Of a stretch of DNA of 64,000 nucleotides, positions 21,906 to 24,983 are shown in pieces. The DNA is from Pirellulales bacterium (lineage in GTDB: Bacteria; Planctomycetota; Planctomycetia; Pirellulales; JACPPG01), in NCBI GenBank assembly GCA_035546535.1, contig DASZWQ010000050.1, positions 124,001-188,000 on the forward strand. Reading direction: 5' to 3'. Under the pieces are notes generated by a model. The model was not told the origin of the DNA and searched no databases. It saw only the letters and a list, made by a program, of their open reading frames with translations. How positions within the stretch are numbered: position 1 is the stretch's first letter; every line of letters starts with the position of its first letter. The position numbers and the translations under genes are program-made.

Positions 21906-23168
21906 ATGGCCGTCCGTTTCAGTGAGTTTGCGGCAAACGTTGGCATTGAATCCGCGTTCAGCGTGCTCGCCGTCGCGCGGCGGCTCAAGGCGTCGGGCAA
22001 GAGGGTCATCGAGCTCGAGATCGGCGACAGTCCCTTCCCTGCCACGCAATCGGCCAAGCGCGCCGCGATCGAAGCCATCCAGGCCGACCAGTCGCATTAC
22101 GGGCCGTCGATCGGCTTGGGCGAGCTGCGCGAGGCGGCGGCGGGCTACATCCGCGCGGAACATGGAGTCGCGGTGACCGCCGACAACGTCATCATCGGCG
22201 CCGGTGCCAAGATCTTCGAGCAATTGTTTTGCGAAGCGTTCCTGAATCCCGGCGATGGCGTGCTGGTTTTCAGTCCCTACTTTCCGACGTATCTGCCGAA
22301 CATCGCTCGGCGCGGTGCTCGGGCCTGGCTGGCGGATTTGCGGTCGGCGGATCGCTTCCGGCCGCGGATCGATGAAGTCGAACGGTTCCTGAAAACCGAT
22401 CCGCGTCCCAAGGCGATTTTTCTCAACAGCCCTCACAACCCCACGGGCGGCGTGGCCACGGCCGAGGACATGCGCGCCCTGGCCGACGTCGTGCGCGGTC
22501 GGGATGTGGCCATTTTCAGCGACGAGCCATACGACCAGATGGTGTGGCGCGGCAAGCACGTCACGCCGCTTTTTGAGCCCGGCATGCTCGAACAGTGCGT
22601 AGCCGCCTACACGTTCAGCAAGTCCTACAGCATGAGCGGCTACCGGTTGGGCTTCGCAGTCGCGGGAATGGCGATCATCGAACGGCTGGCGACGCTTTTG
22701 AACACGACGCTTTCCTGCGTGCCGCCGCTCGTGCAATTGGCGGGCACGGCGGCGCTTTTGCACGACGGCGAAGAGCGTGACCGGAATATGCAGCGTTTCG
22801 CCGAGCAGGTCCAGACCCTGGCCGAAGGTCTGGCATCGATCCCCGAAGTGCGCTGCCAGCCTCCCGACGGGACCTTCTACGTGTTTCCCGACGTCAAAAC
22901 GGTGTGCAACCGGCTCGGCCTCACCTCGCATGGGCTGGCGATGTTTCTGCTCGAAGCGGCCGATGAGAAAGTAGGACTCGCCTGTCTCGGCGGCGAGTGT
23001 TTCGGGGCCACCGGAGCAGGCTTCTTGCGATTTAGCTGCGCCGAGACGCCCGAGGTCATGCGCGAGGCCGTCGCGTTCTTTCGCGAGGCTATCACGCGGC
23101 AGGAGCGAGCCAGGCCATTCGCTGAGAAAAACCCGCACTTCGCGCTGCGACAGCCGTATAGCGGCTGA
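21906..23168 (+). CDS. PLP-dependent aminotransferase, class I/II
   Basis: 420 residues. Fold-type I aminotransferase: substrate/PLP motifs are NSPHNPTGG (Asn binding), SDEPYDQMVW (Asp and Tyr to the cofactor) and TFSKSYSMSGYRLG (Schiff-base Lys). The family transaminates aspartate, aromatic or other amino acids with 2-oxoglutarate; the exact substrate cannot be told from sequence. Length is normal. It follows the conserved hypothetical gene by 43 bases. Confidence 0.88.
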   Translation: MAVRFSEFAANVGIESAFSVLAVARRLKASGKRVIELEIGDSPFPATQSAKRAAIEAIQADQSHYGPSIGLGELREAAAGYIRAEHGVAVTADNVIIGAGAKIFEQLFCEAFLNPGDGVLVFSPYFPTYLPNIARRGARAWLADLRSADRFRPRIDEVERFLKTDPRPKAIFLNSPHNPTGGVATAEDMRALADVVRGRDVAIFSDEPYDQMVWRGKHVTPLFEPGMLEQCVAAYTFSKSYSMSGYRLGFAVAGMAIIERLATLLNTTLSCVPPLVQLAGTAALLHDGEERDRNMQRFAEQVQTLAEGLASIPEVRCQPPDGTFYVFPDVKTVCNRLGLTSHGLAMFLLEAADEKVGLACLGGECFGATGAGFLRFSCAETPEVMREAVAFFREAITRQERARPFAEKNPHFALRQPYSG

Positions 23169-23725
23169 TCCATACACGAGTGCCAAAGCCGCAGGGCGTG
23201 CGTGCGTTCTCGCAACTCACAGAATTGTCACGCCCATCGCAGAAAACCTACGCCGTCGCTGATCGGTCTCGGCTGCAACGCAGCCATGATGCGCTGGTGC
23301 ATCGCATGAGCGAGCGCGGCATTCGACATCAATCGCGATTCGCCTCAGCGCATCGATTCGACAAATCGTGACGAGCGCGCGCAGCCTTCGCGCGCAATGA
23401 GGTGATCCGTGCATCGCGCGCAAAAAAAGTCTTGCACGGTTTCGGCAAACTCCGTAGGATGAGCGAGGTGACACTTGCTGTCGCGCTTGCAAAGGGATGT
23501 TCAAGCAGGCGCGGCGCGATTTGATATCCTGCGTTTCTTTTAACTTACTTCGACGCGCCGTCCTGAGACGGAATGAATAGGCAACCAACAATCGGCGGTT
23601 CATGGATTTCGAGGTCGCCGATTTGCTGAGTTTTTCTGTTTCGCGGCGAGATGCCTTTCGGCCCCTTCCCAGCCTGGCGGCCGGATCAGCAGCTCGCCTT
23701 CCCACTCCCTTAAGGAGGACTTCTG
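23169..23725. other. Non-coding region upstream of the 23-residue peptide gene
   Basis: No convincing gene on either strand. GC-rich short inverted repeats occur near 23375-23396 (GCGCGC arms) just before the promoter at 23432-23460. From the predicted transcription start the leader of the peptide gene would be about 260 bases, long enough for a structured 5' UTR or small RNA; I see no known riboswitch motif. Confidence 0.5.
23432..23460 (+). promoter_or_regulatory. Promoter upstream of the basic peptide gene
   Basis: -35 TTGCAC (23432-23437), 17-base spacer, -10 TAGGAT (23455-23460). The -35 hexamer and spacing equal those of the dapA promoter at 30329-30357. Confidence 0.5.
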
Positions 23726-23797
23726 GTGGCCAAAAAGAAGGCAGCCAAGAAGAAGACCGCTAAGAAAGCGGCCAAGAAGAAGGCCAAGAAGAAGTAG
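23726..23797 (+). CDS. 23-residue Lys/Ala-rich basic peptide
   Basis: GTG start at 23726 with a near-perfect Shine-Dalgarno AAGGAGGA (23712-23719) seven bases upstream. The product has 23 residues: apart from the initiator and one Thr it consists only of Lys (14) and Ala (7), in KKKAA/KKKTA-like blocks, ending with TAG at 23797. A predicted promoter precedes it and an intrinsic terminator follows about 70 bases downstream, so it looks like a complete independent transcription unit. The composition equals the tails of bacterial histone-H1-like (HctA/AlgP-type) proteins, which bind nucleic acid through Lys/Ala repeats. Function as a nucleoid or RNA-binding peptide is inference. Too short for standard gene finders. 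Confidence 0.7.
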   Translation: MAKKKAAKKKTAKKAAKKKAKKK

Positions 23798-23865
23798 TGC
23801 GTCCCGGTCTTTGGACCGGTGAATAACGCGAAACTTCGCGGCAATTGCTACAACGAGAAAGGAAT

Positions 23866-23898
23866 GCCCGGCTAAGGTCACCCTTAGGCCGGGCGTTT
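23866..23898 (+). terminator. Intrinsic terminator after the basic peptide gene
   Basis: GC-rich hairpin GCCCGGCTAAGG (23866-23877) pairing with CCTTAGGCCGGGC (23882-23894), one bulged G, short loop, followed by a T-rich run. Confidence 0.7.
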
Positions 23899-23999
23899 CT
23901 ATTTCTGGACGGCCTTTTCTGGTAGAGCGGAGCAATCGCGGTTTTCGGACCGTTTCCGGAAGGGAAACCCGAGGCACTAACCGCAAAACCTCCCGCAAG

Positions 24000-24983
24000 T
24001 CAGCCGATGGCTGCCTCGTCAGCCAAAGCTTTCAGTCGGCGCAGCGCCTCGTTTCCGCCGTGCTTAAGCCGGGCGGAGAGAACCTCGGAGCCTGAAGCCT
24101 TGGCGTACTTCTGCATCAGGCCGCCGGCGAAATCCAGCGCGGCCTCCGACACGCGGCCGATCACGACCGCGCTGGGGCCGACGAAATCGTGCGGTACCAG
24201 TAGCGCCACCTCCGCGGCCGACGGCCGCGCGGCATGAAGCGCAAGCTGATCGTTCTCCTCGGCACGCCGACCCAGTACGACCTTGGTCGCGCTATCGAAG
24301 CGGACGTGCCGTCCGATCTTCAAAAGCTCGAATTGCCAGCGGTCCGCCTCGGCGTCGCTTCCCAAGAGGTCATGCACCTTGGCCGCAAAGCCAGGCTCGG
24401 TGAGCGCACAGCCGTTCGAGGGCTGCGGGATGCGCTCGAAGCCGAACTCGTGGGCCAGCGCAATCAAGCCAGTGCGGCCGCGGCCGGAAAACGCGTACAG
24501 CTCCTCGCGATTCACAAGGCCCGCGCGTTCCGGCGCCGTCACGGGCAACAAGCGCGCCGAGAGGGGTCGCAGCAAATCATCCGTCAGGCCGGCGCGGTGC
24601 GCGATGAGTGCCAGGTCGCGTTTCTTCTGGCTCATGGGGCGCTGGCCGACGACTTCGCCGCTGACGACCAGTGACGCCCCGTTCTCGCGCATCCACTGCC
24701 CCGCGATGCGGAACATGTAGATGCGGCAGTCCAGGCACGGATTGGCCCCGCGACCATAGCCATGGCGCGGGTGACGGACGATGTCGAGGTAATCGTCCTT
24801 CTCGGCGATGATCGAGAGCCGCACCCCGAGTTCCTGGGCCGCAAGCGCCGCCTGGTCCTGGCAGCAGGTAAAGGTCGTGCGGAACGTGAGCGCCTCGACC
24901 TCGATGCCCTGCCGCTGCAGGATGCGGATCGCCAGCATGCTATCCAGGCCGCCGGAAAGAAGTGCCACCGCGCGCACCGTCAA
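24000..24983 (-). CDS. PP-loop ATPase, predicted tRNA thiolation-like enzyme
   Basis: 327 residues. The N-terminal PP-loop ATP pyrophosphatase motif is LLSGGLDSMLA at residues 9-19, as in MnmA, ThiI and TtcA. Cysteines that could carry sulfur or a cluster occur in TFTCCQDQ and the CxxC of NPCLDCRIYMF. The C-terminal part contains VVLGRRAEENDQL, which recalls the NFACT-R RNA-binding motif. Together these suggest sulfur insertion into tRNA, though the target base is unknown. It starts 27 bases after the end of rnc on the same strand, so an RNA-processing/modification operon is likely. Confidence 0.75.
   Translation of the reverse strand: MTVRAVALLSGGLDSMLAIRILQRQGIEVEALTFRTTFTCCQDQAALAAQELGVRLSIIAEKDDYLDIVRHPRHGYGRGANPCLDCRIYMFRIAGQWMRENGASLVVSGEVVGQRPMSQKKRDLALIAHRAGLTDDLLRPLSARLLPVTAPERAGLVNREELYAFSGRGRTGLIALAHEFGFERIPQPSNGCALTEPGFAAKVHDLLGSDAEADRWQFELLKIGRHVRFDSATKVVLGRRAEENDQLALHAARPSAAEVALLVPHDFVGPSAVVIGRVSEAALDFAGGLMQKYAKASGSEVLSARLKHGGNEALRRLKALADEAAIG

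Follow-up and report, generated by a model that had tools for sequence, protein, structure and literature searches.

A 23-codon Lys/Ala micropeptide gene in a Pirellulales bacterium, with two RNA elements of its own and relatives across one planctomycete order

Among described proteins, the C-terminal KPAA tails of Pseudomonas AlgP (AlgR3) and PhaF are Lys/Ala-rich, predicted to be disordered polycations, and in these respects similar to the micropeptide considered here. Fragments of the AlgP KPAA tail bind DNA, the tail resembles histone H1, and AlgP was found localised on polyphosphate granules (PMC9239181). AlgP and PhaF carry the tail behind an N-terminal domain, with a repeat region of 154 aa (PMC9239181), whereas the copy in the window (the whole 64,000-nucleotide stretch of DNA that was analysed) is a free 23-codon micropeptide without proline and with its own conserved UTR elements; the ORF does not display the N-terminal folded domain followed by KPAA repeats that defines those two proteins. 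Hc2, the chlamydial and burkholderial histone H1-like protein (PF07382, NF038052, NF038053), is also Lys/Ala-rich, of low complexity and variable in length, but its members are longer proteins and VAKKKAAKKKTAKKAAKKKAKKK gave no match to any of the three models. The longest homologues of VAKKKAAKKKTAKKAAKKKAKKK matched Hc2 weakly over their length, at 18 bits. With curated cut-offs of 40, 135 and 80 bits for PF07382, NF038052 and NF038053, respectively, the best homologue scored 18.0 bits against the cut-off of 40 and 18.3 bits against that of 80, values that reflect composition, and the micropeptide is not a member of HC2. Mycobacterial HupB/MDP1 and eukaryotic histone H1 also have Lys-rich tails, which the micropeptide resembles in composition only (PMC5676037), and it differs from both proteins in having no folded domain. 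A known protein family could be dismissed for VAKKKAAKKKTAKKAAKKKAKKK, since comparison with Pfam and NCBIfam gave no match. The freely accessible literature that we searched contains no description of the family, and its long members may well be annotated in databases as hypothetical or histone-like proteins.

The analysed genome comprises 6.36 Mb, with the window on its contig C50. The micropeptide ORF is there preceded by an aminotransferase gene (21906–23168, + strand) and followed by a ThiI-like gene with an NFACT-R_2 domain on the opposite strand (24000–24983, − strand); a Planctomycetia MAG (L003) showed 72% identity in the gene adjoining the micropeptide locus. The ThiI-like gene joins a ThiI/MnmA-like domain to the RNA-binding NFACT-R_2 domain and has its relatives in Nitrospirae and Omnitrophota. 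The features of the locus are listed here, with the RNA models R1 and R2 being described below.

23432..23460, + strand: promoter TTGCAC-N17-TAGGAT (from sequence; kept in three genus relatives)
23645..23698, + strand: 5' leader hairpin, outer stem GGCGAG/CUCGCC, inner stem with CCCAGCC loop (from fold, compensatory changes and model R2)
23712..23719, + strand: Shine-Dalgarno (SD) sequence AAGGAGGA (from sequence; kept in relatives)
23726..23797, + strand: micropeptide ORF VAKKKAAKKKTAKKAAKKKAKKK (from frame, conservation and codon selection)
23850..23862, + strand: conserved 3' motif ACAACGAGAAAGG (from recurrence in the family and model R1)
23860..23900, + strand: terminator hairpin with covarying stem, U-rich tail to about 23908 (from fold and covariation)

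An earlier note on this DNA had described a 23-codon GTG frame with 14 Lys and 7 Ala, and its coordinates and composition were as claimed: VAKKKAAKKKTAKKAAKKKAKKK starts with the GTG at 23726, ends with a stop codon at 23795–23797 and encodes 23 residues, while upstream of its start the frame has no open extension beyond GGLL. The SD sequence that had been placed seven bases before the GTG is present as AAGGAGGA, but the spacing is six bases because AAGGAGGA occupies 23712–23719. The proposed promoter was likewise found (TTGCAC at 23432–23437, TAGGAT at 23455–23460) and is kept in the three genus relatives as TCTTGCAY..CGTA(G/C)GATNANCGA, but its hexamers agree with the sigma-70 consensus at only 7 of 12 positions, a weak agreement, and a promoter scan at the micropeptide gene returned none above threshold. 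The strong hairpin terminator was borne out by folding of 23850–23906 (−32.8 kcal/mol, z −7.3), and a simple terminator scan did not pick up the hairpin at 23860–23900. The picture of a gene with its own signals stood, but the paralogs and the two RNA elements (3' motif and 5' hairpin) had been absent from it. Judged by its sequence, the locus is one monocistronic gene that stands alone and encodes a predicted short polycationic peptide.

The earlier note had also proposed searching relatives for an SD sequence followed by a Lys/Ala frame, and had counted a lack of frame conservation there among the grounds for giving up the gene. When 40 related genomes were searched, three further members of the genus had the locus, at 75–79% identity across roughly 200–290 bases, with the frame conserved and the gene at the same genomic place in all of them (synteny over four genomes including its own). 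The peptides differed within the genus by in-frame changes only. Four blocks were conserved in the genus alignment. The first is the promoter, in which 17 bases separate TCTTGCAC from TAGGATGAGCGA; the others are a stretch of roughly 100 bases ahead of the start, the ORF itself, and the motif with the terminator. Between the promoter and position −110 the sequence was not conserved. The genome itself carries three micropeptide genes, the second copy being VAKKKAAKKGAKKKAAKKKTAKKK on contig C201 (L002), which is common to the genus, and the third MAKKTKKKIVKSPKAKPSHKKTAKKAKKSLKKTGK on C84 (L100, 1366–1473), having 35 aa and an ATG start. The neighbours differ at each copy and are unrelated; that on C84 lies upstream of a DEAD-box helicase-like ORF.

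For the order as a whole we used a pattern consisting of GGAGG, 4–10 bases, RTG and codons for Ala-Lys-Lys-Lys-Ala-Ala-Lys-Lys. It matched in 30 of 296 order genomes (23 of 121 genera), while the same pattern reversed, as a control, gave no match in the 296, in line with the claim that chance coding is unlikely. Every match that we fetched was a stand-alone ORF of 21–86 aa with a GTG start. From all loci together, 95 distinct family ORFs of 18–112 aa were collected, with 75 GTG and 20 ATG starts behind SD sequences, containing 2270 Lys, 1132 Ala, 293 Thr, 226 Val, 123 Pro and 89 Arg residues but only two acidic residues in total (2 Glu, 0 Asp) and two Asn. The 2272 AAN codons of these ORFs were 310 AAA, 1960 AAG, 2 AAC and 0 AAT, i.e. 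2270 AAR versus 2 AAY. These counts are to be read with the collection filter in mind (Lys content above one third), under which Asn-rich frames had less chance of being seen, and they are not independent, some of the ORFs being closely related. All four Ala codons were used (141, 569, 158 and 264). Because the third base of AAN is a purine in all but two cases while all four Ala codons are in use, the codon pattern clearly points to selection acting on the peptide, beyond a mere DNA repeat. Such selection, as read from these ORFs, is for Lys/Ala composition rather than for exact sequence or length (18–112 aa). Conservation in relatives and codon-level selection strongly support the claim that this Lys/Ala micropeptide gene is translated and has signals of its own. 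The window ORF has the features by which we recognise the family, a stand-alone Lys/Ala ORF behind a strong SD sequence, usually with a GTG start, and a 3' ACRACGAGAAAG motif joined to the terminator (R1), and on sequence evidence we regard it as a member of a family, not yet named, whose very short peptides consist almost purely of Lys and Ala and which is spread over one planctomycete order. Stand-alone Lys/Ala ORFs of 21–124 aa also occur in other planctomycetes outside the order, mostly with ATG starts and without the R1 element.

The motif ACRACGAGAAAG recurs 3' of the family stop codons, joined to the terminator stem, and its exact form has two occurrences only in the own genome, both at family genes. 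In an ORF-independent test, ACGAGARAG-N16-44-TCTATTT was sought in 196 genomes, a strong hairpin being one below −20 kcal/mol. Among the 27 matches, all 15 with a strong hairpin lay behind a Lys-rich ORF and none of the 12 without one did so. An alignment of 30 elements showed compensatory changes in 10 of the 12 pairs of the terminator stem, and from the same 30 elements the covariance model R1 was built. R1 matched the window gene at 56.6 bits (E 8.6e-9, whole genome), the window being among the training sequences, with the pattern searches made without the model in agreement. Its three matches at E<0.01 in the own genome were exactly the three peptide genes, including the C201 copy from outside the training set. 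Within the order, 147 of 246 genomes, from 82 of 114 genera, had R1 matches, usually one to three each, and about 40% of the sampled order genomes were without a match, the filters used losing weak ones. Across the phylum (sample of 246 genomes), good matches were confined to order members, and the four weak matches outside the order (E 7e-4 to 3e-3) had no Lys-rich ORF. When 69 order matches over a wide score range were inspected, 66 lay behind a Lys-rich ORF (65 before one hand check). Good R1 matches with no Lys-rich ORF nearby were seen in L194 (827–879), L206 (594–649) and L210 (110–154), and may be decayed copies or elements used by other genes. R1 elements also accompany copies that resemble the C84 gene in genomes G003 and G001 (L195, L196).

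The second RNA element, the hairpin at 23645–23698, lies just upstream of the SD sequence and folds at −29.9 kcal/mol (z −2.5). In the four genus members 95.6% of its cells pair and four pairs are changed on both sides, as reached by 2 of 500 shuffles. When 13 sequences drawn from several families were compared, 89.7% of the outer stem was paired and there were again four double-sided changes, a result that no shuffle equalled; the structure having been derived from some of the tested sequences, these shuffle controls favour it somewhat. RNAalifold on a poor MAFFT alignment of the 5' region gave no structure with compensatory changes, whereas hand-trimmed hairpins did. The model R2, made of this hairpin from four training sequences, is too genus-specific for order-wide use. 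It did give matches, mostly weak, in other families (L059, L122, L123, L114, L156, L094, L075 and G008:C246), where the hairpin has the same place ahead of the start, and unrelated weak ones in L218, L220 and L221 and once each in L002 and L076. Known RNA families were dismissed for both elements, as Rfam 15 gave no match above gathering score for the RNA elements of the transcript, only sub-threshold chance matches. We consider the family, its coding nature and both RNA elements to be well supported by comparison of sequences.

As for function, we propose, with a probability of roughly 60% and by analogy, that the peptide is a disordered polycation like a free histone-H1 or AlgP tail, which binds and condenses nucleic acid, is expressed under control of RNA elements and belongs to an order-wide family. 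It would bind DNA and/or RNA electrostatically and help to compact or condense it, while the amount of peptide or the stability of the mRNA would be set by the leader hairpin and by ACRACGAGAAAG. As the former adjoins the ribosome site and the latter the terminator, translation and the 3' end of the mRNA may be the controlled steps. Since the Lys/Ala family is order-wide and nearly always found on an mRNA with its own RNA tags, a DNA- or RNA-binding 'loose histone tail' is our best guess for the peptide's job, and it probably acts in the manner of a histone-H1-type tail. The nucleoid, RNA or polyanion binding put forward in the earlier note would agree with the composition. In planctomycetes the nucleoid is strikingly condensed, with no known histones (PMC3440768) and by factors still to be identified (PMC3440768; PMC10632474), and free polycationic micropeptides make a direct, testable candidate for this condensation. 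At 23 residues, the peptide may lack the length needed to bind stably or to persist in the cell. The tight tie between RNA element and Lys-rich ORF also leaves room for the peptide binding its own mRNA. An order-wide peptide-RNA system, in which either the peptide or a dedicated factor binds ACRACGAGAAAG or the leader hairpin, with nucleoid or RNA condensation feeding back on synthesis, is a tentative extension that we would not bet on.

Lys/Ala composition cannot tell DNA, RNA, polyphosphate, ribosome or membrane apart as the target, and being so generic it would also fit a polyanion other than the chromosome, such as polyphosphate, RNA granules or the ribosome, with the peptide neutralising charge or seeding condensates. 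The granule localisation of AlgP, with its Lys-rich tail, agrees with such a role (PMC9239181), but the neighbours of the micropeptide gene, an aminotransferase and a ThiI-like gene, include no polyphosphate or ribosome-assembly gene, and each paralog has different neighbours. That argument is weak, because a stand-alone gene need not adjoin the gene of its partner, and we judge this reading as rather unlikely. If instead the transcript were the main product, a dual-function or regulatory RNA acting on other mRNAs or sequestering a protein through its 5' hairpin and ACRACGAGAAAG, with the peptide secondary, the little-changed occurrence of the 3' motif across the order and the covariation of the 5' hairpin would be explained. 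The extreme codon-level selection for Lys, the keeping of SD sequence, start and frame, and the presence of the motif with a Lys-rich ORF in 66 of 69 cases make that improbable.

Two further readings seem hardly tenable. A Lys-rich frame adjoining a terminator might recall a leader peptide or lysine attenuator for a downstream gene, but the next gene 3' (24000–24983) is on the opposite strand, so that with no co-oriented downstream gene at the locus this was rejected; the paralogs, moreover, have unrelated neighbours and homologues reach 112 aa. Equally far-fetched is an ORF arisen by chance in an AAG/GCC repeat of low complexity, or a hydrophobic peptide read from the antisense strand. The sequence is indeed of low complexity and an antisense ORF exists (23710–23844), but the purine third positions of all but 2 of 2272 codons and the empty reversed-pattern control in 296 genomes rejected the chance ORF, while the antisense peptide is not favoured, every conserved signal being on the + strand. 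The preferred reading of a free nucleic acid-binding tail also bears on detection, such peptides being missed by gene callers because of their length and by trypsin-based proteomics because of a Lys at every one to two residues, a proteomics bias also reported in the AlgP study (PMC9239181). Through the two RNA elements, every member could be traced and the control of a micropeptide studied.

Some variants deserve mention in their own right. Five Lys-rich members end in cysteine clusters that are possibly metal-binding or redox-active, namely L095 (KNCMCRCK), L144 (KKSCKKKC), L186 (CKKCCKK), L199 (CKRGCCKK) and L211 (GCCCK). Peptides of family f8 (L174–L183) start with ATG and often have KKKKGHG or GHK at the end, and their terminator stem-loop is nearly invariant over several genera. 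In another planctomycete family, the ORFs of L226 (from 1512) and L227 (from 1513; genomes G451 and G436) encode proteins of 73–75 aa that open with the same MAKKKAAKK and run on into an apparent histone fold, with weak, below cut-off matches to CBFD_NFYB_HMF/Histone; they look like possible bacterial histones to which a Lys/Ala tail has been joined.
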